Shown here: positions 6,520 through 29,839 of the stretch, piece by piece
How positions within the stretch are numbered: position 1 is the first letter of the stretch
Layout of the letters: the number at the start of each line of letters is the position of its first letter
DNA from: an endosymbiont of Lamellibrachia barhami
Lineage (GTDB): Bacteria; Pseudomonadota; Gammaproteobacteria; Chromatiales; Chromatiaceae
Assembly (NCBI RefSeq): GCF_011947365.2
Contig: NZ_JAAVSH020000001.1
Span: forward strand, 786,630-826,788
DNA length: 40,159 bases
Direction of reading: 5' to 3'
The notes under the pieces: generated by a model
The model's database searches: none
What the model saw: the letters and a program-made list of their open reading frames with translations, nothing else
Told to the model about the DNA's origin: nothing
Translations under genes and position numbers: made by a program

Positions 6520-7422
6520 CTACCCCTTCAGTCTGTACTCAATCTCCGGGAGCATGCGTTTCACACAGTTTTCACCCTCCTTGATCGCCTCTTTTCCCCG
6601 GTGAAATTCCAGCAGTTCGATGTGGGAAAGCCTGGGTGAGAGCATGATGTCCGGCGGGTCGCCGGCCATGCGGCTACGGGTGATTCGGTCCTGGGTGATA
6701 TTGATGGAGCCGGCAATGGCGTCAAACAGGCTGGGTGCGGGATCTTTGCTGGGAAAGAGGGTGTCCGAGTAGGCGCGGATGCTGCGGGAGACACTGTCGA
6801 GCAGACCTTTATCCTCTGGTGGCTCCTCACGGGTTTTTTTTCTCTGATGCTTGCCCAGGATGTCACCGTTCAGATTGACTGCAATCACGATATCTGCGCC
6901 GAGGGCGCGGCAGATAGAGACCGGCACGGGGTTCACCAGACCGCCATCCACCAGCCAGCTGCCCTGATGCCGTACAGGCGGGAACAGGCCCGGCAGTGAA
7001 ATCGATGCACGGACTGCATCGAGGGTGAGACCTTCAGTGAACCAGACTTCACGCCCTGTCTTCAGATCAGTGGAGACAGCGGCGAAGGTCTTGGGCAACT
7101 GTCCGATCTGAATGGCTTCATCGCAGACGCACGCGTCGAGAAAAGCGTGAAACCGCTCGGCGTTGACAAAGCCATTGAGAGAGAGATTAAGTTCAAAGAA
7201 GCGAGTGACCGTTCGCTTGGAGAGTGACCTGACCCAGGTTTCGAGGGCCTCCAGATTGCCGGCGGCATGGGATGCCCCGACAATAGAACCGATGGAGCAG
7301 CCGCAGATGATGTCAGGCTCGATACCTGTTTTTGCCAGTTCTTTGATGATGCCGATATGTGCCCAGCCCCGTGAAGAACCACTGCCAAGGGCCAGGCCGA
7401 TGCTCTCTTTTGCCTTATCCAT
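6520..7422 (-). CDS. rssA: Patatin-like phospholipase, RssA family
   Basis: 300 aa, cytosolic by appearance. It has the patatin oxyanion-hole loop GSGSSRGWAHIGI (13-25), the nucleophile elbow GCSIGS (Ser43) and the catalytic DGG (Asp159), the full Ser-Asp dyad of this lipid acyl-hydrolase family. The short N-terminus and GLALGSGSSRGWAH start are typical of RssA-like proteins. Substrate unknown; E. coli RssA is also uncharacterised. It is read in the same direction as glgP but is separated by about 170 bases holding a palindromic repeat, so it may have its own promoter. Confidence 0.8.
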   Translation of the reverse strand: MDKAKESIGLALGSGSSRGWAHIGIIKELAKTGIEPDIICGCSIGSIVGASHAAGNLEALETWVRSLSKRTVTRFFELNLSLNGFVNAERFHAFLDACVCDEAIQIGQLPKTFAAVSTDLKTGREVWFTEGLTLDAVRASISLPGLFPPVRHQGSWLVDGGLVNPVPVSICRALGADIVIAVNLNGDILGKHQRKKTREEPPEDKGLLDSVSRSIRAYSDTLFPSKDPAPSLFDAIAGSINITQDRITRSRMAGDPPDIMLSPRLSHIELLEFHRGKEAIKEGENCVKRMLPEIEYRLKG

Positions 7423-14146: not shown

Positions 14147-15706
14147 TTAGTGACGGAAGTGGCGCATGCCGGTAAAGACCATGGCCATGCCGTGTTCGTT
14201 TGCAGCAGCGATCGCCTCGTCATCGCGCATGGAACCGCCGGGCTGGATCACTGCAACGATGCCGGCTTCTGCGGCGTTGTCGATGCCGTCCCGGAAGGGG
14301 AAGAAGGCGTCGGATGCCATCACGGAACCCTTCACTTTCAGGCCTGCATGTTCCGCTTTGATGCCGGCGATGCGGGCGGAGTTGATGCGGCTCATCTGAC
14401 CGGCGCCGACACCGATGGTCATGCCGTCCCTGCCGTAGACGATAGCGTTGGACTTGACGAACTTGGCGACGCGCCAGGTAAAGAGCAGATCGCGCATCTC
14501 CTCATCTGTGGGCTGGCGTTCGGTGACGACCTTAATCTCGTTGGTGAGTTGCAGGTCGGCGTCCTGTACCAGCAGGCCGCCGTTGACGCGCTTGAACTCG
14601 GTGCGGTGCAGTGCTTCGACATTCCACTCGCCGCACTCCAGCAGGCGCACATTCTTCTTGCTGCTGACCGCTTCGATGGCTGCGGCGGAGAGATTGGGCG
14701 CGATGATCACCTCGACGAACTGCCGGTCAACGATGGCCTGGGCGGTCTCGCCGTCCAGTTCGCCGTTGAAGGCGATGATGCCGCCGAAGGCGGATTCCGG
14801 ATCGGTGCTGTAGGCGCGATCATAGGCTTCGAGCAGATTGTCGCCGAAAGCCACGCCGCAGGGGTTGGCGTGTTTGACGATGACGCAGGCGGGGCCCTCG
14901 TCAAAGTTCTTCACGCACTCCAGGGCTGCGTCGGTGTCGCCGATATTGTTGTAGGAGAGTTCCTTGCCCTGGATCTGTTTGGTGGTGGCGATGCATGCTT
15001 CCTCGACCTTGTGTTCAACGAAGAAGGCCGCCTTTTGATGCGGATTCTCGCCGTAGCGCATGGTCTGCACCTGCTTGAACTGCATGGAGAAGGTGCGGGG
15101 AAAGTCTGCCACCTCTTCGCCGGTGCGGGCGCCCAGGTAGTTGGCGATGGCTGCATCGTAGCGGGCGGTGTGTTCGAAGGTCTTTACCGCCAGGTCAAAG
15201 CGGGTGGCAGCGGAGATATCGCCGTCGTTGCCGTCCATCTCCTCCAGAACCCGCGCATAGTCTGCGGCGTCCACCACCACGGTGACGTCCTTGTGGTTCT
15301 TGGCGGCGGCGCGAATCATGGTGGGGCCACCGATGTCGATATTCTCGATTGCGGTCGGCAGATCGCAGTCGGGATTGGCCACGGTCTGCTCAAAGGGATA
15401 GAGGTTGACCACGATCAGATCGATATTGCCGATACCATTCTCTTTCATTACCTGGTCATCGGTACCGCGCCGGCCGAGAATGCCGCCGTGAATCTTGGGG
15501 TGCAGGGTCTTGACCCGCCCATCCATCATCTCCGGGAAACCGGTGTACTCGGAGACCTCGATGACTGGGACATTGTTGTCGGTAAGCAGCTTGGCAGTGC
15601 CGCCGGTGGAGAGGATTTCAACGTTTTTTTCGGCCAGGCTGCGGGCGAATTCCACGATGCCGGTCTTATCGGAAACGCTGATCAGGGCGCGGGTAATCGA
15701 AGACAT
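14147..15706 (-). CDS. purH: Bifunctional AICAR formyltransferase / IMP cyclohydrolase
   Basis: 519 aa, full length. It performs the last two steps of IMP synthesis. The N-terminal IMP cyclohydrolase domain begins [19 protein letters not shown] and carries [30 protein letters not shown] and the INLYPF-equivalent [10 protein letters not shown]. The formyltransferase domain has [31 protein letters not shown] (Lys-His catalytic pair), [10 protein letters not shown] and the C-terminal [17 protein letters not shown] followed by [11 protein letters not shown]. It lies 118 bases after fis on the same strand, the usual gammaproteobacterial order. Confidence 0.96.
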
Positions 15707-18169: not shown

Positions 18170-20782
18170 GTGCTTGACCAGGCGCTGGCAGGCACCTCAT
18201 CCACACCTATCCCGGTTTTTCGCGACTTCCTGAAGCTGGGCACTGAAACGATCAGGGAAAGATTTAATCAGGAACAGCCGATAACCCAGCTGGTGGGCGC
18301 CCGCGCCCATCTGGTCGATGCCGTCCTGGAGCGCGCCTGCAATCTCCACTTCCAGGATTCCACTGACGCCGCACTGGTCGCAGTGGGTGGGTATGGCCGG
18401 GGAGAGCTCCATCCTGCTTCAGACATCGACCTGCAGATTCTGCTCGACCACGAAGATCACTGAACAAGCCGTAGGAACCCTTACTGGGCCAGTCTGCTCT
18501 GGGACATCGGACTGGAAGTTGGACACAGCGTACGCACCATTGAGGATTGCATCCGGGAAGCATCAAATGACATCACGGTTGCCACCAACCTGATGGAATC
18601 CCGGCTGCTGGTCGAGCCTGAGACCCTCTTCAGGGCGATGCGGAAAGCCACCAGCCCCGCTAAGATTTGGGACAGCAAACGCTTTTTTGAAGCGAAATTT
18701 GCGGAACAGCAGGCGCGGCATCAAAAATTCGAGGACAGCGAAAGCAACCTGGAACCCAATCTGAAGGAGAGTCCAGGCGGATTGAGGGATATCCAGATGA
18801 TCGGCTGGGTGGTGAAACGCCACTTCCAGGCCGACACCTTGCGTGATCTGGTGAGTCACGGCTTCCTCAACGAGGACGAATACCAGACACTGATCGAAGG
18901 TCAGGATTATCTCTGGCGCATCCGTTTCGCCCTGCATACCCTTACAGGCAGACGCGGCGACATTTTACTTTTCGACTATCAGCGCACCCTGGCTAACCAG
19001 TTTGGCTATGATGACAATACCAGCAATCTGGCGGTGGAGCAGTTTATGCAACTCTTCTACCGGACAACGCTGGAGCTGAACCGCCTCAACGAAATCCTTC
19101 TGCAGCACTTCCAGGAAGCGATCCTACTGGAGAACAAGCTGGATGCCCCCGTTTCTCACGGCAACCGTTTCCAAAGCCGCAACAGTTTTCTCGAGGTCAC
19201 CCATCCGGATGTCTTCTCCCGCACCCCCACCGCCCTGCTGGAACTCTTTCTTATCCTGCAGGAGAATCCAGAACTAAAAGGTGTCAGAGCCAGCACCATC
19301 CGCCTGCTGCGGGACAATATTCAGCTGATCAACAGCGCCTTCCGCGCAGACATCCGGGCACAGAGCCTGTTTATGGAGATCCTGCGCCAACCCTGGGGCA
19401 TAACCCGGGAACTGCGCCGCATGAATCGTCATGGCATCCTCGCTGCCTACATTCCAGCCTTTGAAAATATTGTCGGACGTATGCAGTACGACCTGTTTCA
19501 CGTCTATACCGTGGATGAGCATACATTGATGGTGCTGCGTAACCTGCGCCGTCTGTCAGTGCCGGAACTCGCAGAAGAGACCCCCTTCTGCACCCAGCTG
19601 TTCCGCACCCTGCCGAAGAAAGAGCTGATCTATCTGGCCGCCCTCTTCCACGACATCGCCAAAGGACGTGGCGGCAATCACTCCATACTCGGTGAGAAGG
19701 ACGCGGTGGACTTCTGCCGCCAACACCATCTCAGCGAATATGACAGCCGTTTGGTTGGCTGGCTGGTGCGCAACCACTTGGTCATGTCCATGACCGCCCA
19801 GCGCAAGGACATCAACGACCCGGACGTCATCCAGGCGTTTGCTGAAAACGCCGGGGACACAATGCACCTCGACTATCTCTATCTGCTGACAGTCGCTGAC
19901 AGTCAGGCCACCAATCCGAAACGCTGGAACTCATGGAAAGATTCACTGCTGCGGGATCTCTACAAATCCACCCATCGCGCCCTGCAGCGCGGGCTGGACA
20001 ACCCGCTGGCGCAGGAGGAGTTGATCCGGGAGACAAAATACGAAACGCTGGAACTGCTGGCCAAGGCCGGACACGATGAGAGAGAGATTCTCAGACTCTG
20101 GCAATCCTTCAGCCCGGAGTATTTTCTCTCACACTCTCCCAATGCGATCTGCCGGCAGATTCAGGCCATCATCACCACGTCACCGGAAGACCTGCCGCTG
20201 GTCGCGATCCATGAAACCGCCGAACACGGCGGCAGCGACGTACTCTACTACGGACCGGATCGCGACAATCTGTTTGCCGTCATGACCACCCTGCTGGATC
20301 AGTTGGGCCTGTCCATCGTCAACTCCCGCATCATGAGCACGACTCAAGGCTTTTCTCTCGACTCATTCCTGGTCATGGAGGAGGATGGCAGTCCTGTCCA
20401 GCTTGGCCATCGCGCCGAAGAGATCATCACCACCCTGAAAGCCGGATTGACGCAGAAAGACGACCGGCCACTCAAAGTGCATCGCCGCATGCCCCGCCAG
20501 CACAAGAGCTTCGACACCCCGACCCGCATCTTCTTCTCCCAGGATCCGGCTTACAACCGCACAGTGATGCGTCTGATCACCCTTGACCGGCCGGGACTGT
20601 TATCGGAAGTGGGACAGGCCTTCGCCGCCTGCGACATTCGTCTGCAGCACGCAAAAATCGCGACCATCGGCGCAGAGGTGGAGGATATCTTTTTCATCAC
20701 CGACCGGGAGAACCGGCCGTTATTGGACAAGCATCAGCTGGAGCGTCTGGAAGCCGCCGTCACCACACGGCTGCCGGAGTAG
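18170..20782 (+). CDS. glnD: PII uridylyltransferase/uridylyl-removing enzyme, interrupted by an in-frame TGA
   Basis: 870 codons from a GTG at 18170, close to the normal 860-900. GlnD modifies and demodifies PII in response to glutamine. The nucleotidyltransferase motif GGYGRGELHPASDIDL (73-88) is intact, as are VGHSVRTIEDC, the HD-domain LFHDIAKGRGGNHS and two C-terminal ACT domains (RLITLDRPGLLSEVGQAF). TGA at 18461-18463 interrupts it after LLDHEDH. Removing T18461, one G of 18474-18475 and one G of 18486-18488 restores an uninterrupted DHEQAVEPLLASLLWDIGLE, just what the family has there, and three insertions keep the downstream frame. The break is therefore either a sequencing error cluster or a recent inactivation. 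The alternative, a truncated UTase plus an internally started protein at 18593, is less likely. Confidence 0.85.
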
Positions 20783-20810: not shown

Positions 20811-21983
20811 TCAGCGCTTGCTGCCCAACTTGCCGCCACTCCCCTGCAGTGAGAGCAGGTTGGAGTCGAAGACATAGGTCCGCCTGCCCTTTTCCCGAAA
20901 CCTCTCCAGCGCCAGCTTGATGACGCGAGTGGTCAAGGCAGCAAACGAAACGCCGCTCGCCTCCCAGAGATAAAACGCCAGTGATCCGGGGATGGTATTG
21001 ATCTCGTTGACAAAGACATCGCCGCGCTCCTCATCAACAAGAAAGTCGATACGAACCACTCCACTCGCGCCAATCAGGCTGAACGTCTCCTTTGCCAACT
21101 GGCGGATCCTGTCCGCCAGTTCCTCGGGTATCTCCGCCGGCAGTACGCGATCGGTGGAGCTGATGCCCTTGGTCTTGCCACCCTGATATTTGTCGGCAAA
21201 ATTCAGGATACCGCTGGAACGCAGGGGCTCCTCCAGCGCCGCAACCTCCACCCCATCCCGATTACCCAGCACCGAGGCGTTGATCTCCTTGAGTCGGGTC
21301 ACCATGCGTTCGATCAGGATCGAGGGGTCGTACTGGCCGGCGTTTTCGATCGCCTCCTCCAACTCCGTTTCCGAGGCAGCGACACTAATGCCAATGCTCG
21401 ACCCCAGATTCGCCGGTTTGACCACTACCGGGTAACCCAATTTGGACTGGATCCGGTCGATAATCGCCCGCCTGTCCTGATACCAGGCTTCCATCCGACA
21501 ACTCTCCGACTCCACCACCGGGATGCCGTTACCCCGCAACAGTGTCTTGGTCAGGATCTTGTCCATGCCGATGACCGACGCAGTGACGTCGCAGCCTGCA
21601 TAGGGAACACCTGCCATCTCAAGCAGCCCCTGCAGGGTACCGTCCTCGCCATTGGTGCCGTGAATAACAGGAAAGACGATATCAAGTTTCTCGACGAGGT
21701 TGTTTTTAAGACGGGCCGGAGGAACACGATAGAGTTCAAGCTGTCCGCCATTTCCGTGAGGCGTAACTTCAGTGCTTTCGGAGAGCAGGGTTTCCAGTTG
21801 CTTGAAGTTGTCGATCTCAGACAACTTTGCACCGATGTACCACTCACCCGTTTTACTGATGTAAACCGGCGTCACGCAGTATAGATCGGCATCGATTGCA
21901 TGAACGACCTGCAGACCGGAAATGATGGAGACCTCATGCTCTACCGAGCGGCCACCAAAAAAGACGCCAACATTGGGTTTCAT
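20811..21983 (-). CDS. D-alanine-D-alanine ligase family protein, variant specificity possible
   Basis: 390 aa ATP-grasp ligase. The N-terminal GGRSVEHEVSIISG has the family glutamate (Glu15), MDKILTKTLLRGNGIPV and GYPVVVKPANLGSSIGIS form the ATP site, and the end has the acid-Asn cluster FVNEINTIPGSLAFYLWE. In E. coli DdlB, Tyr216 of the omega loop favours D-Ala as second substrate. The aligned position here, in GILNFADKYQGG, is Phe262, as in Leuconostoc Ddl2, which makes D-Ala-D-lactate. The omega-loop wording (LNFADKY...SSTDRVLPAEIP) and the NEINTIPGSLAFYLWE ending resemble Ddl proteins of Clostridia more than the usual gammaproteobacterial ones, as recalled by eye. It is downstream of a membrane Mur ligase but separated by CACGAAG repeats. 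Confidence 0.85.
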   Translation of the reverse strand: MKPNVGVFFGGRSVEHEVSIISGLQVVHAIDADLYCVTPVYISKTGEWYIGAKLSEIDNFKQLETLLSESTEVTPHGNGGQLELYRVPPARLKNNLVEKLDIVFPVIHGTNGEDGTLQGLLEMAGVPYAGCDVTASVIGMDKILTKTLLRGNGIPVVESESCRMEAWYQDRRAIIDRIQSKLGYPVVVKPANLGSSIGISVAASETELEEAIENAGQYDPSILIERMVTRLKEINASVLGNRDGVEVAALEEPLRSSGILNFADKYQGGKTKGISSTDRVLPAEIPEELADRIRQLAKETFSLIGASGVVRIDFLVDEERGDVFVNEINTIPGSLAFYLWEASGVSFAALTTRVIKLALERFREKGRRTYVFDSNLLSLQGSGGKLGSKR

Positions 21984-22023
21984 CGACTACACCTTCAACT
22001 CACGCAAATTCGAAATACCGCTT

Positions 22024-22153
22024 TCACCACGAAGAACACAAAGAGTACGAAGGTTTGAGATCTCTCCCTACGGTCGAGATAACAATAATGCAATTAATCA
22101 AATCCTCCCTGACCATACATTTTCTTCGTGTCCTTCGTGTTCTTCGTGGTTAA
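22024..22153. repeat. Paired CACGAAG inverted repeat, locus C
   Basis: CACCACGAAGAACACAAAG..ACGAAG at 22024-22052 faces CTTCGTGTCCTTCGTG..TTCGTGGTTA at 22124-22153, with an AT-rich 70-base centre. It separates the Mur ligase stop from the Ddl start. Confidence 0.75.
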
Positions 22154-22174
22154 TTATGTTTTTTCAATCGGAGA

Positions 22175-23779
22175 CTAATTATAAGTATCCGGCAGATCAT
22201 TTTCATAGAGCACGACATCACCCTCTCGCGAGATCTTCGCAAAATGGTCATTGGCCTCATTCAGATGGGCCGCAACATATATCTGGTTTTGCGGATAACC
22301 TGCCGAAACCAGCCCCTCATAGATCGGTTTGGCCCGCTCGATACCCACCAGAATGACATAGTCACAGCGGCTTGCCGCGTAGGCGCCAAGAAGACGATTC
22401 TCCTCCGCCTCCGTTTCGCCAAGCTCGACCATGCCCGGAGTGATCAACACCTTTCTCTTGCCCTCAATCTCCCGCAGCACATCCAGGGCGGCTCGCGCCC
22501 CCATTGGATTGGAGCTGAATGCATCGTCCACGATGGTGATGCCCGCAGCGCTCTGTTTCACGTTCAATCGGTGTGGCGCCGGCTGCAGCGAGCGCACCGT
22601 CGCTCTGATCCGGTTTTCCGGCACACCCAGCTCCATTGCCACTGCAACTGCAGAGACGATGTTGTAGATATTGTTTTTTCCCAGAAGACGGGTCTCCAGC
22701 TGCAGCGTCTCCCCCTTCGGTAAAGAGAGAGTGAGCGCAGTCAGGCCATTGGCCAGATATTTGATCTCGCGCGCCGCATAATCCGCTCCCGGTGAATCGA
22801 CGCCGAAACTGACAACCCTCGCCTGAGTCCTGCCTCGCACTTCAGCAAAACTCTCATCATCCGCATTGATAAACGCGATGCCATCGGACGGCAGGGATTC
22901 GACCAACTCCGATTTGGTCTTCACAATATTGGCAAGACTTTTGAACATCTCCAGATGCTGTTTACCGATGGTGGTGATCAAACCATACCTGGGGTGCACC
23001 AACTCGCAGATCTCCCGGATATCACCCGGCTGTTTGGCGCCCATCTCCACCAGAAAGAGATCGTGTATCGGCTTGAGCTTCTCCCTGATGATGCGAGTCA
23101 CCCCAAGCAGGGTATTGAAACTGCCCGGCGTCATCAATGCATTGTATTTGGCCAGCAACAGTTCATTCAGGATGAATTTGGTACTGGTCTTGCCATAACT
23201 CCCGGTGATACCGACCACCTGAAGCCCCGGCATGCCGTTGATGATCTTCCCCGCATCGCCGATGTACCATCTGGCGATGGCCGACTCCACCGGCACCGCC
23301 AACAGGTTGGCGACGAGCAGCAGCCAGGGCAGCAACAGCAGGAGCAGGCCCGACATGAGAAACAGAGAAAAATAGGGGACTGGTGACAATCCCGTCGCAC
23401 CGAGAAAAAACGTCGGCAGCGACACCCCCACCCAGATCAGAAAGATTGCCGCCATCAGGCGCTTGACCCTTCCGGTCACCACCAGCGGCTTTTTCACCGG
23501 CGCTTTGGGGCGTTTCAGACTGAGCAGCAGGAATCCCCCGATCCAGATGCCGAAAAATAGCCCGCTGTTCCAGTAAAACAGCAGCGCCACAAGCGGTAGC
23601 AGTGAGACCAGGCCAAGACGTTTAAGCAGATCCTCGTGCAGCCAACGCAGATAACGCTCATTGCGATAGGAGTTGAGCTGCAGCATGTGCAGGTAGTGCA
23701 TAACTGCGCGTCCGACGATAACAGCGTAGAGCGTCAGGGCAAGCAGCACAGCAAGCGTCTGGAACAGGGCAGCCCCCAT
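22175..23779 (-). CDS. Membrane-anchored Mur ligase family protein (MurF-like)
   Basis: 534 aa. The first about 165 residues contain four to five membrane helices (LFQTLAVLLALTLYAVIVG, LVSLLPLVALLFYW, GIWIGGFLLLSL, LMAAIFLIWVGVSLPTFF, PYFSLFLMSGLLLLLLPWLLLV), which ordinary MurF lacks. A Mur ligase follows: P-loop GSYGKTST (193-200), NTLLGVTRIIRE, VEMGAKQPGDI, TTIGKQHLEMF (His275), ADDESFAEV, LLGKNNIYNIVSAVA, then VDDAFSSNPMGARAAL and a terminal VVLYENDLPDTY typical of MurF. MurF adds D-Ala-D-Ala to UDP-MurNAc-tripeptide; a membrane anchor hints at a lipid-linked or transported acceptor here. The preceding hydrolase ends 3 bases before this start. Confidence 0.85.
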   Translation of the reverse strand: MGAALFQTLAVLLALTLYAVIVGRAVMHYLHMLQLNSYRNERYLRWLHEDLLKRLGLVSLLPLVALLFYWNSGLFFGIWIGGFLLLSLKRPKAPVKKPLVVTGRVKRLMAAIFLIWVGVSLPTFFLGATGLSPVPYFSLFLMSGLLLLLLPWLLLVANLLAVPVESAIARWYIGDAGKIINGMPGLQVVGITGSYGKTSTKFILNELLLAKYNALMTPGSFNTLLGVTRIIREKLKPIHDLFLVEMGAKQPGDIREICELVHPRYGLITTIGKQHLEMFKSLANIVKTKSELVESLPSDGIAFINADDESFAEVRGRTQARVVSFGVDSPGADYAAREIKYLANGLTALTLSLPKGETLQLETRLLGKNNIYNIVSAVAVAMELGVPENRIRATVRSLQPAPHRLNVKQSAAGITIVDDAFSSNPMGARAALDVLREIEGKRKVLITPGMVELGETEAEENRLLGAYAASRCDYVILVGIERAKPIYEGLVSAGYPQNQIYVAAHLNEANDHFAKISREGDVVLYENDLPDTYN

Positions 23780-23782
23780 AGA

Positions 23783-24487
23783 TCAGGTTTCCATTTTCAG
23801 AAAATAGTCGACGATGATCTGGAACTCGCCAGGCTTTTCCAGATAGGAGAAGTGTCCTGCCCCCTTGATGAGCGCCAAACCACAATCGGGTATATGCGCC
23901 TCCATCACCTTTGCCTGATAGAGAGGCGTATCCAGATCGTCCTCTCCCCAGACCAGCAGGGTGGGCGCTTTGATCCCGGACAGCAGGGGCGTCAGATCTT
24001 CATTCACCACCTTTACCAGGGTCTGTCGCATAATGGGGGAGGCATTGCGGTAATCTTCGGAACCGGCACGTCCGCGCATCTTTTCCAGTAGTGGTGGATA
24101 GAGCCGGCCCGGGACATTTTTCATCAGCTTGTATGAATAGACCTTGAGATAGTAATTCAGGCTGCGGCGGGGTTTGACCCCGGCACTGTCCACCAGAATC
24201 AATCTTCTGACCGACATCTCCGTCGCCAGCCGGATCGCCAGCCGACCACCGAAGGAGTGACCGATGATCGCAGGATTTTCGATCTCCATCTCAGCGATAA
24301 AACGCTCCACCAAGGCCGCATATTCCGTCGTTCCCCATGGGGATCCCGGCTCCTGGCTTTCACCGAAACCGGGAAGATCCAAGGCGTAGACACAATATTT
24401 TTTCGCCAGATGCTGCCTGACAGCCGCGAAACTTCCGAGATCGCTGCCCCAGCCGTGCAGGATAAGCACACGACTCCCACTGCCCAC
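23783..24487 (-). CDS. Alpha/beta hydrolase
   Basis: 234 aa as annotated from GTG 24487. Catalytic features: the oxyanion HGWGSDLGSFAA, nucleophile elbow GHSFGG (Ser in IIGHSFGGRLAI), acid in LLVWGEDDLDTP and His in IKGAGHFSYLEKP, all in canonical order. Homology-like sequence continues upstream of the GTG (TIHNIRLHYDVVGSGS), so translation must begin earlier. No ATG is available in frame; an ATT at 24529 lies 6 bases after CGGAG and is a candidate. Substrate unknown. It overlaps functionally with the downstream Mur ligase only by operon position (3-base gap), which suggests it releases or edits a product of that pathway. Start uncertain. Confidence 0.8.
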   Translation of the reverse strand: MGSGSRVLILHGWGSDLGSFAAVRQHLAKKYCVYALDLPGFGESQEPGSPWGTTEYAALVERFIAEMEIENPAIIGHSFGGRLAIRLATEMSVRRLILVDSAGVKPRRSLNYYLKVYSYKLMKNVPGRLYPPLLEKMRGRAGSEDYRNASPIMRQTLVKVVNEDLTPLLSGIKAPTLLVWGEDDLDTPLYQAKVMEAHIPDCGLALIKGAGHFSYLEKPGEFQIIVDYFLKMET

Positions 24488-24557
24488 AACATCATAGTGG
24501 AGACGAATATTGTGGATAGTAGTGTAAATCGTTATCTCCGGGTCAGACAGTGAGGTT

Positions 24558-24642: not shown

Positions 24643-27600
24643 CTAAGCGGGGCTGCCCGCTGGCCGCAGGGGGTCCGCACCAATCGTGCCGACCAGACTG
24701 CGCAGATAGTCATCACTTCGTACTGCCGCGAGCCGCGCTTCGGCCATCTCGAGTCGCGACGCTATACCCATCTTTTCAGCCACATCCGCATAACCGGGCC
24801 GACTGAGGAAATCCTGCAGATAATCAACATGACGTTCCCAGAGCGATATTTCCCGAACCTGTTTCACTTGCAGACGCTCCTGGTACCAATCCGATGCCAA
24901 CAGGTAGTCGCTGGTGAACATGGCGCGAATCTCCGGGTCATGCACTGCCTTACCTTCGTACTCACCCTTCGCCATGATATGCAGCACAGCCTTCAACGGC
25001 GGACAGGCATCCTCAACACTGCCGTCATCCAGATACTGCTGAGCAACTCTCTGTTGTGCCTCTAGGATATTGTTGATGCCGTCCGCAAAGACATCCAGAT
25101 CCTGCAGTTCCGGTTTCAGGATACTTTCGGTCAGCACCGTGTTGGCATTATCGAAAATCTTGCCGAGGAAGCCGTGCACAAAACGATCGGTAATACGATA
25201 ACCCAACCGGCTCGCCAAAACCTGATGGCCGTTATGCTCAAAGTCTTCCAGCGGTTCGAGGTAGCCGTTCTCGATGAGATAGGCCGGTTCACGTTCATGT
25301 TCATCGAGCCGCGCCCAGACCTCAGGGATCAGCAGGCTGATATCGTGGTTAACCCGCACGTTCGGACCGACATACCCGGCAGAACTGGAAAAACCCGGAT
25401 AACCCGTAAGAATGAACGAGACCAGCGCATTGTTGAGATCCGCAGTGGCGCGCAGGGCGTTGAAAGGCCCCTTGGTCAGCGCACCCTCACTCCCCGCCCC
25501 GGTGGTGGAGGGGGACTTGCCGGTGAGACTGCAGACAAAGTCCATGAAAAGTTCGGGCAGCTCCTGATAATGGATCGGGTTATAGACCGCCAGGGAGCGA
25601 ATACCGGGTTCAGGTGGGTTGTTGCGACGTCCGGCCAGCACCGCATCGACCGTATGACAAACCTTCTTTCCCAACGGCAGCTTACGATGGAATCGCGCGC
25701 CAATCTCGGCCACGTAGGCCCGTATCGGCGCCACCAGATCCTGCCGGGTCTGCAGATAGCGGGGGTTCTTGCTCGGCTTTCCATCCACCAGCCGCGGATG
25801 GGCAGATGAGGCCACATAACCGCTCTGCGCTTCGTGGGCACCCGTAAGCAACTCTCGCATGGGCTGAGTGAAGTTGCAGAGATTCAGCACATCCTCCACC
25901 ACCTCGGTCAGCTTCTCCCCGCTCAGCGGCTCAAAATTGGCAAGAAAATTCCCGGCCTGGGACATATCGAATTCGGTCTGCTTGTCGAAACCGGGTATGA
26001 CGGCATCATCCGGACGCTGGAACAGACGATACTCGCAGTTGGCGGTCAACTTGACGCTGCGATCATTGTCAGATCCACAGCGGCAGTCATCAAGGGATTT
26101 CGCTCTGACCACCACCGAAGTGGTGATGTCGTCCTCCATCTGAATCTTGTCAGCGGCGATGAAATCCTGTCGTACCTTGAAGATGCGCCACTCACCGCGC
26201 GCATCGAAACCGACGCGCAGATAGGAGGCGATGATGCGGCGATCCAGCAACTTCAGTTCATGGCCAGCCGCACCGTCTATCTCATCCACTGAAATATATT
26301 TGCGCCAGTTAGTGCCCCAGAATGGCCGGTAGAAACGTTTGATGACAAAGGCCAGCGCCAGGATGCGCGGCGGAATCGACTCCAGCCAGGCATTGTACTC
26401 ATCCGTATAGCTGGGAGAGGGGGTCATCAATTTGATGAAGGAGCCCAGGCTGCGCTCCTTACTCAGCGGCTTACGGCTGGGATCCCGGTCCACACTCTCA
26501 AAACTGGACTTCAAGCGATCACTATAGTCCCGCTCGTAGATCTCCTGCACCCGGTCGAGATCAATCTGCAGATCATCCACAAAGAGCGGACCATAGATCA
26601 CCGCATCGTCGAGAGACTTGGATATCTCCGATTTGCCACCACCGGAGACGGTGCTGGGTTTGTGACAAAAAGTCCCCTCGGGGTCGGTGCCGATCAGACG
26701 CCAGGAGGGGGCGCCCGGATGCTTTTGCATCTCTATTTTATAACCGTTGGGCTGGATATAGATCTTGCCCGGCTGCAGACGAATAACATGCGACTCGCCA
26801 TCCCGCAGGAAGGCGATGCTCTGCTCCTGCAGATCCATGCGCAGATCCTGCGGCACGTAGATTACATCGGGGAAGCGCTTGTCGATACCATGCCCTTCAG
26901 GTTGCAGATTCATGATATCGCCGTAGCGCTCCACCACATCCTGAAAGCTGTAACCCAGCTCCCGGGTTATAGAGTCGACACCATATTCGATGCCGTGGTT
27001 ACGGCGAGGGAAGGCCAGTGCTCCGCCGGCATGCTCCTCCTCCGCCAGGCCAAAAAGATTGGCGGCGAAGCTGATCTGGGTCTTGACCTCTTTCTTGCAA
27101 TAGCCGTAGTAGTTATCCGCAAGAATGGTGACGATCACGCCGCTCTCATCACGGGCAGTGATCTTGAAGGCCTGGCCATCGTTGTAGCGTTCGTCTTCCG
27201 ACTGCCAGCACATGCCTTCCGCCCGCTGACGCTCACTGGCATCGTCGAAGTGGGGCAATCCTACAGACTTTTTGGTGAGCTGGGTAAGATGGGGCGCGAG
27301 GATGACGCAGCCGGTCTGTCCGCTCCAGTGGTCCACATCCAGGGCAGAATCAAACTCCGGCAGCATAGGGTTGCCGCCGTTGCCGAAGATGCTCTCGACA
27401 AAATCGAGGTTACTGGCCAGGTTACCCGGCGCGAAGAAGCGGATCTCCATGCTCTTCTGGCTATCCTGGCCGGGGATCTCCGGACAGACGGTGGGGCGCA
27501 GCAGCAGGGAGACAAACATCTTCGCCTGCTCTTCCAACGCTGAGGTAAAAGGTATCTGCAGCAGTTCATCCGGCGGATTCATTGCGGCTGACAGCATGAA

Positions 27601-28176
27601 GGCAAAACAACGCTTCGGCACCACCTTCTTGTCGCCAGGAACCGGCAGTCCGCCATCGGCAATATGAAAAGAACCCTTGGTGGTCCGGCGATCGCTGGCG
27701 GGATTGTGCAGCACACCCTGCTTCACCCGGAAACTGTTGACGATATCGGAGTGGAACTCGTCCTCGCCCAACGGCAGGGAGAGCTCCCGGGCCACGCCAT
27801 GCCTGTCAAGGATGAAGGTCATGGCGGGCAGCCTGGGAATCTCCCCTTCAGGAAGACCCTCAAGATAACGTTCCAAAAATGACTGGATACGCTGGTCAGC
27901 GGGACAGAGGTAGTCGGTGAGCAACCGGTTCTTCTCCCGGTAAGTCTTGAGCAGATCGTGGGCGGTGGAAAGAAACGCATCATCTCCGCCAGCAACTGTG
28001 GGCTGACCCGAAGACGCCAGTTTCAGGTTGATATAGAGCTGTAGCTTTTTGCTCTCTTCTTCCGGATCAGCCGGAGTATCTTTAAGACCGAGGGAACGCT
28101 CGAAGTCCATGACTTCTCCAAATCTGTTGACCGCGCGCATCCTGCCCGAAGCAGCGTACAGATTCAAGTCTGACAC
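24643..28176 (-). CDS. Putative pyrophosphate-dependent phosphoenolpyruvate carboxykinase
   Basis: 1177 aa. PPi-type PEPCKs (known from Entamoeba and Propionibacterium) are about 1100-1180 aa, twice the ATP/GTP enzymes, and interconvert PEP, CO2 and phosphate with oxaloacetate and PPi. The match here is from memory of conserved blocks: RFFAPGNLASNLDFVESIFG (246-265), ADNYYGYCKKEVKTQISFA (353-371), EEEHAGGALAFP (379-390) and the P-loop-like HKPSTVSGGGKSEISKS (505-521), where classical PEPCKs have a kinase-1 loop. The C-terminal half is an all-alpha-looking region without an obvious named domain. No signal peptide, so cytosolic. A TATAAT promoter and hairpin precede it. If correct it would tie C3/C4 carboxylation to PPi. 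Alternative: a large conserved protein of unknown function. Confidence 0.65.
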   Translation of the reverse strand: MSDLNLYAASGRMRAVNRFGEVMDFERSLGLKDTPADPEEESKKLQLYINLKLASSGQPTVAGGDDAFLSTAHDLLKTYREKNRLLTDYLCPADQRIQSFLERYLEGLPEGEIPRLPAMTFILDRHGVARELSLPLGEDEFHSDIVNSFRVKQGVLHNPASDRRTTKGSFHIADGGLPVPGDKKVVPKRCFAFMLSAAMNPPDELLQIPFTSALEEQAKMFVSLLLRPTVCPEIPGQDSQKSMEIRFFAPGNLASNLDFVESIFGNGGNPMLPEFDSALDVDHWSGQTGCVILAPHLTQLTKKSVGLPHFDDASERQRAEGMCWQSEDERYNDGQAFKITARDESGVIVTILADNYYGYCKKEVKTQISFAANLFGLAEEEHAGGALAFPRRNHGIEYGVDSITRELGYSFQDVVERYGDIMNLQPEGHGIDKRFPDVIYVPQDLRMDLQEQSIAFLRDGESHVIRLQPGKIYIQPNGYKIEMQKHPGAPSWRLIGTDPEGTFCHKPSTVSGGGKSEISKSLDDAVIYGPLFVDDLQIDLDRVQEIYERDYSDRLKSSFESVDRDPSRKPLSKERSLGSFIKLMTPSPSYTDEYNAWLESIPPRILALAFVIKRFYRPFWGTNWRKYISVDEIDGAAGHELKLLDRRIIASYLRVGFDARGEWRIFKVRQDFIAADKIQMEDDITTSVVVRAKSLDDCRCGSDNDRSVKLTANCEYRLFQRPDDAVIPGFDKQTEFDMSQAGNFLANFEPLSGEKLTEVVEDVLNLCNFTQPMRELLTGAHEAQSGYVASSAHPRLVDGKPSKNPRYLQTRQDLVAPIRAYVAEIGARFHRKLPLGKKVCHTVDAVLAGRRNNPPEPGIRSLAVYNPIHYQELPELFMDFVCSLTGKSPSTTGAGSEGALTKGPFNALRATADLNNALVSFILTGYPGFSSSAGYVGPNVRVNHDISLLIPEVWARLDEHEREPAYLIENGYLEPLEDFEHNGHQVLASRLGYRITDRFVHGFLGKIFDNANTVLTESILKPELQDLDVFADGINNILEAQQRVAQQYLDDGSVEDACPPLKAVLHIMAKGEYEGKAVHDPEIRAMFTSDYLLASDWYQERLQVKQVREISLWERHVDYLQDFLSRPGYADVAEKMGIASRLEMAEARLAAVRSDDYLRSLVGTIGADPLRPAGSPA

Positions 28177-28346: not shown

Positions 28347-28790
28347 TTACTTAACTGCCGATTGCATGCAGCTATCCATCTCGGCACTGCTGGCACTCTT
28401 TCCCAAACAGCCTTTTATCGCCTCGCTCCGCTTGATCGATAGTTTCAGATCCTTCACCATCTGGACCTTCATTTCCGGACTCCACTCGATATTCTTCGGA
28501 TCTGGCGCGAGCGGTGGTTTGCCGTGAGAACTCTCCTTGCCTCCGCCTATGGAGCGCATGGCCTGCTCTCTGGCCTCGGTCATAATGGCAACACACTTCA
28601 TCAGATCATCCTTGCTGGATGTCCCCTCCAGACAGGTCAGGGTCTTTTTCATCGCCGGTATGCTCGTCTCCATCACAGGAAGCATCCTCTGCTTTGCCAT
28701 CTTGAACATCTGTTCCCTGTCCATCTGTCCCTGCGGAGACTGCGCAAAGACGAGCGCCGGCAGCAACAAGATCGGTAGCAGATATTTCAT
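28347..28790 (-). CDS. Small secreted protein with conserved-looking cysteines
   Basis: 147 aa. A clear signal peptide (MKYLLPILLLPALVFAQ) is followed by a helical, Met- and Lys-rich mature part. Four cysteines, in KTLTCLEG, LMKCVAIM, IKGCLGK and DSCMQS, could form two disulfides in the periplasm. Two similar-looking helical repeats (TLTCLEGTSSKDDLMKCVAI and AIKGCLGKSASSAEMDSCMQ) suggest an internal duplication of a C-x(11-13)-C hairpin. No family recognised. It ends 170 bases before the PEPCK-like gene and follows a membrane protein gene, apparently as a separate unit. Confidence 0.75.
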   Translation of the reverse strand: MKYLLPILLLPALVFAQSPQGQMDREQMFKMAKQRMLPVMETSIPAMKKTLTCLEGTSSKDDLMKCVAIMTEAREQAMRSIGGGKESSHGKPPLAPDPKNIEWSPEMKVQMVKDLKLSIKRSEAIKGCLGKSASSAEMDSCMQSAVK

Positions 28791-28828: not shown

Positions 28829-29839
28829 CTATTCCGCTAGGGGAGGCTTTTGTGCATTGCCTTCTCTGCCTGGCGCCCCGGCCACACTGGAGGGTCTTTT
28901 CCCGACCGAACGCAGATCGACCAATTTGTTGAGCAGGTCAAACCAGAAGGGCGCACCCATGGAGATAGCAAGGATGGTAATCAACAGGCCGGTTATTTTG
29001 ACCAGCACCGCCCATAATCGGCTCTCTTCGTCTCCTTTTGCGTCTTCCCGGTTCTGCCAGAATTTTGTTACCGACTCGCTATCCCAACCCAGGGGCAGTG
29101 AGAGACCTTCAATTTTCTCAACAACCTCTTTGTAATTCTGATCCTTTGTCAGGGCATCTTTATCACTCTTTGCAAGTTGCTCCGCCTGCGCCACCAAGGC
29201 CGTACGCACACCGGAATCATGCCACAGCACATGGGCGATATGGATAGTGTCGATGTTCATCGAGGTGACTACTACGGCGGCGACAAGGAGGATAATCATC
29301 TGCGACTGGCGTCGATACCAGCCCGATGCCCGACCCATCGAGGTATCAAACCACGCCTCGATGTTGGATTGAATCTTCTCCAGATCATCTCCCGCATTAT
29401 CGAGCAATGGCAGGAGGGAGCGTTTGAGGTGTTCGTTCTCCTCCTTGTTGATCAGGCTTCGGATCGACGTAACCGTTTTCATCTTGCCATCTCCGCCCCT
29501 GGCCCCAATGGTATCGAGCAGGGTAACGGCAAAGGTGTGAGGCGGGATATAGTTCGGTACCTTCTCATCCCTCTGCTTACCGAAAAAGCGTACCGGAGGC
29601 TGTTTCAGGGCACTGATGAAGGGATGTGACGTGACCTTGCTGATCAGGGTGGCAGCCGCCGAATTCTCCGCAGGCTTTGCCTCATTCGTCAACAATTGAT
29701 TGAGCGCTGTCAGCAGGTTCTTGGAGCGCAGATTGAAAAAACCGGCGATCATCTCATTGAGAGAGGAGCAGAGCAGGCTCAGCAAAATATAGATGAATGC
29801 CAAGCCAATGGCGACCTCAAGCATGACTGATCCAAACAT
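28829..29839 (-). CDS. Conserved membrane protein of unknown function
   Basis: 336 aa. A long N-terminal membrane helix (VMLEVAIGLAFIYILLSLLCSSLNEMIAGFF) is followed by a soluble stretch with IPPHTFAVTLLDTIG and a helical LKRSLLPLLDNAGDDLEKIQ. A second helix comes at about 175-195 (QMIILLVAAVVVTSMNIDT) and a third near the C-terminus (VLVKITGLLITILAISMGAPFWFDLLNKL). The SSLNEMIAG start and APFWFDLLNKLVDLRSVGKRP end are seen in uncharacterised bacterial membrane proteins. The soluble loop between helices 1 and 2 carries the word FDTSMGRASGWYRRQ. No function is proposed. Confidence 0.75.
   Translation of the reverse strand: MFGSVMLEVAIGLAFIYILLSLLCSSLNEMIAGFFNLRSKNLLTALNQLLTNEAKPAENSAAATLISKVTSHPFISALKQPPVRFFGKQRDEKVPNYIPPHTFAVTLLDTIGARGGDGKMKTVTSIRSLINKEENEHLKRSLLPLLDNAGDDLEKIQSNIEAWFDTSMGRASGWYRRQSQMIILLVAAVVVTSMNIDTIHIAHVLWHDSGVRTALVAQAEQLAKSDKDALTKDQNYKEVVEKIEGLSLPLGWDSESVTKFWQNREDAKGDEESRLWAVLVKITGLLITILAISMGAPFWFDLLNKLVDLRSVGKRPSSVAGAPGREGNAQKPPLAE

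Follow-up and report, generated by a model that had tools for sequence, protein, structure and literature searches.

The question raised by this locus is whether three genes in the genome of an endosymbiont of the tubeworm Lamellibrachia barhami, which encode an alpha/beta hydrolase, a MurF-like Mur ligase with a membrane domain and a D-alanyl-D-alanine (D-Ala-D-Ala) ligase (Ddl), form an extra system alongside the ordinary pathway, as had been claimed when the sequence was first read (hereafter, the original prediction), or whether they are themselves the pathway. MurF and Ddl are essential enzymes of fixed textbook form, whose canonical gammaproteobacterial genes, murF and ddlB, lie in the dcw (division and cell wall) cluster. 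We consider it highly probable that a foreign, co-adapted module of a Ddl and a membrane MurF, together with the hydrolase, has displaced these two genes. In the window, that is, the whole stretch of 40,159 nucleotides that was analysed, the trio occupies the following positions:

20811-21983, minus strand: Ddl gene (390 amino acids), an open frame assigned by Pfam and NCBIfam; the only Ddl found in the genome
22175-23779, minus strand: gene of the membrane MurF-like ligase (534 amino acids), an open frame; the only MurF-type protein found in the genome
23783-24487, minus strand: gene of the alpha/beta hydrolase (234 amino acids as listed), an open frame assigned by Pfam and the first gene of the trio; an ATT start at 24529 is possible

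The three frames are complete and are transcribed in the order hydrolase, Mur ligase, Ddl. All their Pfam assignments are over the cut-off: Abhydrolase_1 and Abhydrolase_6 in the hydrolase, Mur_ligase_M and Mur_ligase_C in the ligase, and the N- and C-terminal Dala_Dala_lig domains in the Ddl. NCBIfam points to the same family for each protein. The stop of the hydrolase and the start of the Mur ligase are three bases apart, as originally stated; the Ddl is not tightly linked, being separated from the Mur ligase by 191 bases with fragments of an interspersed repeat.

With regard to the sole copy and DISPLACEMENT, a search of the organism's own genome with Mur_ligase_M returned six proteins, namely the MurF of the trio, three in the dcw cluster, one at about 0.75 megabases (Mb) and one at 3.38 Mb. 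The dcw ligases were read by sight as MurE, MurD and MurC, and the 0.75-Mb protein as Mpl; no second MurF was found by this search, in which the 3.38-Mb protein was not looked at. The corresponding search with the C-terminal domain of Ddl (PF07478) gave 169.4 bits for the Ddl of the trio and two further partial matches, of 35.6 and 30.7 bits (cut-off 24), in frames of 1072 and 465 amino acids that were taken for other ATP-grasp enzymes; these two partial low matches aside, it found no second Ddl. Each of the five further genomes of the genus (which comprises six genomes, the window's own included, four of the further ones being records L032-L035) also contains one MurF-type and one Ddl-type match at an E-value of 1e-30. 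In the organism's own dcw cluster, whose genes were named by sight, murE ends at position 7063 of locus L007 and mraY starts at 7066, and the end of murB lies at 14295, the start of ftsQ at 14292; murF is absent between the former two genes and ddlB between the latter two, both here and in the single-contig genome G005. In the one genome checked from another genus of the same family (G008), a murF of 453 amino acids lies between murE and mraY, and a ddlB of 307 amino acids between murB and ftsQ. The canonical pair, which the original prediction had advised seeking elsewhere in the genome, was not found in the six genomes of the genus, and this sister genome carries both genes in dcw.

The membrane-MurF profile (made from alignment A1, described below) matches, at an E-value of 1e-100, 6 of the 210 genomes of the family, all of them of this genus, 1 of 61 genera; among 274 genomes sampled from the class it matches 5, own included, from five families. 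As the searches found no further MurF or Ddl, the trio appears, from sequence, to be the organism's pathway and not one added to an ordinary MurF and Ddl, and the idea of an extra, special pathway beside the normal one is rejected for the six genomes of the genus. The trio does lie outside any mur/ftsZ cluster, as predicted, at about 0.67 Mb from dcw. The original prediction had also envisaged that the trio might be the sole murF and ddl of the organism with ordinary phylogeny, a displaced standard pathway; the copies are indeed sole, and the phylogeny, as will be seen, is not ordinary.

The MurF itself departs from the canonical form in its N-terminal part, and can be divided as follows:

23237-23779, minus strand: N-terminal helical membrane domain, residues 1-181, from the model and hydrophobicity, standing at the place of the uridine-binding domain
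23615-23701, minus strand: first loop of the membrane domain (residues 27-55), presumed to be cytosolic, in which Q34 and Y38 are invariant (61 of 61)
23456-23515, minus strand: loop 2, residues 89-108, cytosolic by inference; K96, T102, R104 and R107 invariant in 61 of 61
22208-23221, minus strand: Mur ligase central and C-terminal domains, residues 187-524, from Pfam, with an intact ATP loop, GSYGKTSTK

The central and C-terminal domains score 139.2 bits (PF08245) and 54.6 bits (PF02875). In the AlphaFold2 model calculated on A1 (predicted local distance difference test, pLDDT, 89.3; predicted template modelling score, pTM, 0.83), residues 1-181 are all helical and are followed by the Mur central and C-terminal domains. 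Four hydrophobic regions exceed the threshold (1-30, 50-78, 99-131 and 130-169), and, judging by the basic loops that separate these, 27-55 and 89-108 are likely to lie on the cytosolic side. The protein is a membrane protein with a multi-helix domain, as had been predicted, the length of that domain being not the 165 residues first given to it but rather residues 1-181. In Foldseek, ranks 1-10 are soluble MurF structures (judged by title and, for 2am1, by molecule name), aligned over 363-371 columns, which is about the length of the central and C-terminal domains, and the match to the MurF model TIGR01143 begins at position 74 of 418. The Mur ligase N domain (PF01225) was found in none of five membrane MurFs (the window's and four relatives) at an E limit of 10; among the controls it was detected in a soluble MurF and in the organism's own MurE, and was missed, at E 0.01, in a MurF-alanine racemase fusion.

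Identity to the window protein in A1 is 0.16-0.20 in the hydrophobic parts, 0.48 and 0.49 in the two loops and 0.52 in the central domain. In the 61 membrane MurFs of all groups, Q34, Y38, K96, T102, R104 and R107 are invariant, as are the four ATP-loop residues checked alongside. A count of nine invariant loop residues, which holds in the 46 rows of A1, was abandoned for these six in the 61 rows, where M32 and R42 are each kept in 47 and S37 in 43. Since the loops are as conserved as the central domain and six of their residues are invariant, the two loops are a working surface, and they may bind the phosphates of the substrate. A MurF motif also differs between the two types, in step with the Ddl acceptor loop treated below: of nine membrane MurFs, seven have DDAF(N/S)SNPxG, one has DDAYNSNP and one gives no match, and of seven soluble MurFs, five have DD(S/T)YNANPxS and two do not match the pattern. 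A1 consists of 45 loci and the window, 41 of its 46 rows being from records named Bacteroidota; of 80 loci, 77 gave a usable MurF and 47 passed the similarity filter, L053 and L063 being omitted for their short N end. The alignments A2 (37 rows) and A3 (28 rows) were hand-picked from the same locus list. In L104 the MurF frame (1618-2073) is broken by a stop and the match continues to 3174; this locus was omitted from the alignments.

The Ddl partner has a peculiarity of its own:

20961-20990, minus strand: shortened acceptor loop, residues 332-341, PGSLAFYLWE; the canonical Ddls compared have PGxTxxS

With its two domains (PF01820 and PF07478) it passes two subfamily models of D-Ala-D-Ala ligases, NF002528 with 329.6 bits (cut-off 262) and TIGR01205 with 289.7 (245.65), and falls under the cut-offs of the D-Ala-D-Ala equivalogs NF002526 (295.4, against 449) and NF002525 (249.2, against 457), as well as of the equivalogs NF002527 (226.8, against 310) and NF002529 (221.6, against 472). 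No D-lactate (D-Lac) or D-serine (D-Ser) model was passed among the 25 of 61 families listed, the best being VanG with 228.8 bits against 495. A KY pair in the omega loop marks D-Ala-D-Ala ligases; here K265 and Y266 are invariant in 28 rows and align with the KY of the solved Ddl 2i87, which we take to be that of Staphylococcus aureus. A Van-type resistance cluster is ruled out by the model scores, and no van partner is present among the nine window proteins scanned. The special D-Ala-D-X dipeptide that the original prediction had in mind is not indicated by the family models; the unusual acceptor loop leaves a dipeptide other than D-Ala-D-Ala possible, as far as can be judged from sequence.

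The acceptor loop is PGFTAFS in 2i87 and PGMTSHS in the DdlB of G008, and the Ddls that go with membrane MurFs co-vary with them, the short loop being present in 11 of 11 symbiont loci (six genomes), in 17 of 17 of the clostridial phylum and in 3 of 3 loci of other gammaproteobacteria. Among the best 80 loci of the scan described below, 67 of 75 follow the strict pattern, six have N or S for F and two are cut short; one locus has no Ddl. In further genomes it is found in 29 of 30 Ddl loci, a set that overlaps the others, the exception (L181) not being the trio Ddl of its genome. The loop is short also in 8 of 8 Ddls that do not lie beside their own membrane MurF in the same direction, seven of them on another contig or far off (G231, G171, G400, G335, G518, G550 and G581) and that of G185 near its MurF on the opposite strand. 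The match to the solved structure 2pvp, which is named D-alanine-D-alanine ligase and is presumably the Helicobacter pylori Ddl, spans the acceptor loop with 43 to 41 residues, so that 2pvp seems, from the match limits only, to have the short loop too.

The third member of the trio has residues S78, D184 and H212, which fit a Ser-Asp-His triad, invariant in 37 rows, and its model (pLDDT 90.0) and Foldseek give the fold of a serine alpha/beta hydrolase. Foldseek places it closest to general hydrolases, esterases and lipases, with a bacterial membrane phospholipase A in first place; the best NCBIfam match is EstV (NF058580), with 137.7 bits, below the curated cut-off of 300. The listed GTG start may be too late and the true one the ATT at 24529: a GGAG box and this in-frame ATT lie within the 52 bases that precede the listed start, a stretch that is the same in four relatives, and in several homologues an ATG is present about 17 codons further upstream. 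Against an ATT start, those same four relatives have ATG at the listed position.

How widely is this arrangement found? A scan of genome contigs confirmed 97 relatives, the best 80 of which were used, 4 from symbionts and 76 from others; since it looked for exact peptides taken from the window protein, divergent proteins would escape it, and the absence of Campylobacterota from its matches says nothing against them as donors. These 76 non-symbiont loci among the best 80 are nearly all named Bacteroidota, and their matches are long and extend into the membrane part; the hydrolase adjoins upstream in 73 of the 75 testable, the Ddl downstream in 74 of 76, and both in 71 of 76, the loci without the full order being L040, L049, L052, L063 and L084. 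In a sample from the phylum of a Clostridia-named record (G072), 123 of 299 genomes match at 1e-60; 17 of the 299, centre included, have the membrane type, and the other 106 match only from position 142 on and are consequently of the ordinary soluble type. Next to the 17 membrane MurFs there is a Ddl in 17 of 17 and a hydrolase in 16 of the 16 testable, both being present in 16 of 17 (the genome of L088 is counted here and among the 71). The same order in both sets takes the trio far beyond chance, which bears out the reading of the three genes as a one-direction unit, and the Clostridia-like versions to which the original prediction pointed do exist with the same trio.

The membrane MurF is found without the trio as well. 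In a sample from the phylum of a Mucilaginibacter genome (Bacteroidota), 62 of 296 genomes match, 61 with the membrane type, centre included, and one (G582) only from position 177. Among the best 30 loci of this sample, 5 of 30 have the hydrolase next to the MurF, and of the 29 in which the Ddl could be tested, 1 has it there, namely the centre genome itself; a large branch of the bacteroidetes thus possesses this MurF but not the trio. The trio is complete in one of four other gammaproteobacteria; of the remaining three, the first has just the hydrolase, the second a Ddl on the opposite strand, and the third neither gene.

In the MurF tree of 75 rows, the 61 membrane MurFs form one branch apart from the 14 soluble ones, with a support of 100 in the Shimodaira-Hasegawa-like approximate likelihood ratio test (SH-aLRT), a split to which the membrane columns themselves contribute; the symbionts stand in it amid rows of gammaproteobacterial, clostridial and bacteroidete origin. 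The main groups come back in the Ddl tree (53 rows), unlinked Ddls included: the solitary bacteroidetes with L164, L166, L167, G171 and G185 are grouped at 84 in the MurF tree and at 88 in the Ddl tree, and in the latter G231 goes with L036 and L118 (90). Both trees are quick ones with SH-aLRT support, made from chosen subsets and with some long branches. The distances over 39 loci correlate at 0.73 between MurF and Ddl, 0.70 between MurF and hydrolase and 0.62 between Ddl and hydrolase, values to which shared species history contributes. The separate branch, together with the restriction to one genus within the family, makes transfer, which the original prediction had considered possible, the best account; the trees it had proposed separate the membrane MurFs from the soluble ones. 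The MurF and Ddl trees place the symbionts differently and name no donor. A plasmid source was rejected, since none of the 113 matching plasmid records covers 80% of the query, and the 40 plasmid matches listed all begin no earlier than residue 163, as in ordinary soluble MurF; likewise a viral source, none of the 138 pattern-matching stretches in viral contigs encoding a relative. In both trees the MurF and Ddl of L057, a record named Paenibacillus, group with Duncaniella (Muribaculaceae), and this record is probably misnamed or a mixed bin.

If we accept the displacement, the module would have entered the ancestor of the tubeworm-symbiont genus and the dcw murF and ddlB would have been lost, and the organism would depend on the trio alone both to make D-Ala-D-Ala and to attach it to the peptidoglycan precursor. 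The Ddl would make the dipeptide in the cytosol, and the MurF, embedded in the inner membrane with four to six helices, would join it to the N-acetylmuramic acid (MurNAc)-tripeptide beside MraY, to which the product would be handed over. Its substrate would most likely still be the tripeptide linked to uridine diphosphate (UDP), and the two conserved loops would grip the UDP-sugar end, replacing the missing N-terminal domain. The hydrolase would accompany the pair as a cytosolic serine esterase, and our best guess for its role would be quality control, for example of depsipeptide by-products.

Certain observations weigh against this account. The symbionts stand with three other gammaproteobacteria in the MurF tree with weak support (83), and at the base in the Ddl tree; their nearest rows outside the genus are distant, with identities of about 47% for MurF, 51% for Ddl and 57% for the hydrolase, and given these distant rows and the discordance of the trees, the joint arrival of MurF and Ddl is not proved by them. 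The window MurF gives 233.8 bits with TIGR01143, below the curated cut-off of 288.6, a score that is to be expected if a domain is missing; and the test for that domain is itself not fully sensitive, given the fusion missed among the controls and the HMMER filters, which drop most matches above about E 0.1. The functions of all three proteins are predicted ones. Finally, the trio MurF is not always alone in its genome: in 22 genomes chosen from the best 80 loci, there is one Ddl over the cut-off in 22 of 22, and 12 also hold a MurF-type frame of 794-878 amino acids, those without it, some of them draft bins, being the four symbionts, G059, G066, G072, G073, G075 and G076. Among 30 further genomes, one (G804) has such a long frame over the cut-off, the other second MurF hits being partial or weaker (107-167 bits; that of G231 is the MurE beside mraY), and a second Ddl-type match occurs in seven (G762, G915, G798, G819, G400, G335 and G581), over the cut-off in G762 and G915. 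The long frame L212 is, by Pfam, a fusion of a Mur ligase and an alanine racemase; L213 and L214 (the latter from G804) were read by eye. In L212 and L213, from trio-bearing Bacteroidota, the ATP loop is kept and the motif is DDSYNSDL or HDNYTSDF, versus DDxYNANP in the soluble MurFs matched, and the MurF half of these frames may have changed function, the racemase half of L213 being assumed from its length.

The alternatives that have to be weighed refer for the most part to the substrate step, and not to the displacement itself, to which our high confidence applies. There is some chance, although we doubt it, that the membrane domain is only an anchor, by which an otherwise ordinary MurF is placed beside MraY and the elongation machinery, and that the loops bind a protein partner; the hydrophobic segments are indeed poorly conserved, and the MurF of H. 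pylori interacts with the membrane protein Csd5, according to the portions available of two papers (PMC9448923, PMC9507126), but an anchor leaves unexplained both the missing uridine-binding domain and the six loop residues that are identical in 61 of 61 proteins from Bacteroidota, Gammaproteobacteria and the clostridial phylum. The same missing domain, with a helical membrane domain in its place, and the fact that three of the six invariant loop residues are basic, would also suit a MurF that acts after MraY and adds D-Ala-D-Ala to a loop-held, lipid-linked MurNAc-tripeptide (lipid I or II), the order of steps being changed. We hold this to be unlikely, because MraY would need to accept the tripeptide form, and because the MurF of H. 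pylori, with its four reported N-terminal transmembrane domains (PMC9448923), is described as acting at the final cytoplasmic step (PMC9507126). Improbable too is the broader proposal that the stem peptide is finished on the membrane with the acceptor site of Ddl changed in concert, and that the symbiont genus switched to this mode by gene replacement.

The special D-Ala-D-X dipeptide, edited by the hydrolase, is less probable still. In its favour are the short PGSxxxYLW loop of the Ddls that go with membrane MurFs, versus the canonical PGxTxxS, and the difference between the membrane and soluble MurF motifs; this is countered by the two D-Ala-D-Ala subfamily models that the Ddl passes, by its failure in all the D-Lac and D-Ser models listed, by the preserved KY pair, and by the apparently short loop, on match limits only, of a ligase named for D-alanine-D-alanine, 2pvp. 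As for an artefact of contamination or misassembly having placed the trio in this genome, an estimated contamination of 3.75% (with a completeness of 99.96%) would allow it in principle, but the chance is practically negligible: the trio lies on the 4.15-Mb contig C1 of a 4.17-Mb genome, near glnD, fis and lpxA, and is present again, with 93-95% identity, in the five further genomes of the genus, the single-contig G005 among them, the relatives L032-L035 being endosymbionts of the tubeworms Escarpia and Lamellibrachia. In summary, a distant pair, with a membrane-bound MurF that has no uridine-binding domain, appears to have taken the place of both MurF and Ddl. Two enzymes of the dcw cluster would then be replaceable by a pair from outside, and this raises the question, which can be tested, of whether the D-Ala-D-Ala end is always put onto a soluble precursor.

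The surroundings of the trio comprise glnD on one side and a frame of 1177 amino acids on the other, and between the genes of MurF and Ddl lies one further feature:

21984-22174, no strand: murF-ddl spacer of 191 bases, with repeat matches elsewhere in the genome

This spacer carries CACGAAGAACACGAAG-type inverted repeats, and for parts of it the genome contains 40 matches elsewhere (of 66 candidates, 40 were scored; some are the two strands of a single place). The 1177-amino-acid frame (24643-28176, minus strand), upstream of the hydrolase, has no Pfam or NCBIfam match, nor have the frames 28347-28790 and 28829-29839. The glnD gene (18170-20782, plus strand) is divided into two frames by an in-frame stop at 18461-18463; the stretch is open in four tubeworm-symbiont relatives (L032-L035), so that glnD here is either a broken gene or an assembly error.

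It remains to compare the module with known systems. It shares with the canonical MurF (TIGR01143) and DdlB of the gammaproteobacterial dcw the Mur central and C-terminal domains with their ATP loop and an ATP-grasp Ddl; it differs from that MurF in that no N-terminal domain was found, in its score below the cut-off, its separate branch and its other locus, and from that DdlB in the shortened acceptor loop. MurT, of the MurT/GatD lipid II amidotransferase, is without a canonical N domain. It resembles the window protein in being a Mur-ligase homologue, and it acts on a membrane-bound precursor, its N-terminal region not being visible, according to the part of the source available (PMC6085368). 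The window MurF, in contrast, gives 20.8 and 26.3 bits with the MurT models, whose cut-offs are 800, and no GatD is present among the nine window proteins scanned. The order in H. pylori is, we assume, HP0738 (ddl), HP0739 (hydrolase) and HP0740 (murF), the three genes lying presumably close together in Campylobacter jejuni as well; the finding of four transmembrane domains in H. pylori MurF reportedly goes back to Blair et al. in 2018. The EstV of H. pylori, which gives its name to the family closest to our hydrolase in NCBIfam, yet below cut-off, prefers short-chain C2-C6 esters, as stated in the excerpt available (PMC3741291). As regards the dcw cluster, the loss of murB and ddlB from it is described for the FBC superphylum in the accessible part of a study of its order (PMC8871954), and the main text of a paper on tubeworm symbionts, in the portion available, mentions no MurF, Ddl, Mur ligase or cell wall (PMC7787665). 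In the literature that could be searched, from which most subscription papers fall outside and which was available in part, no paper was found on the membrane-MurF trio across phyla, nor on its displacing the dcw murF and ddlB. For H. pylori MurF, the accessible portions of the sources report four N-terminal transmembrane domains (PMC9448923), an interaction with the shape protein Csd5 (PMC9448923, PMC9507126, PMC7012605) and catalysis of the final cytoplasmic step (PMC9507126). The window MurF is like it, as far as these portions go, in having several N-terminal membrane helices; unlike what is described for H. pylori, which was compared by description, the tubeworm-symbiont module takes the place of a murF and a ddlB lost from dcw. 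A membrane MurF, then, has already been reported in H. pylori, and the tubeworm-symbiont module is a variant of that kind.

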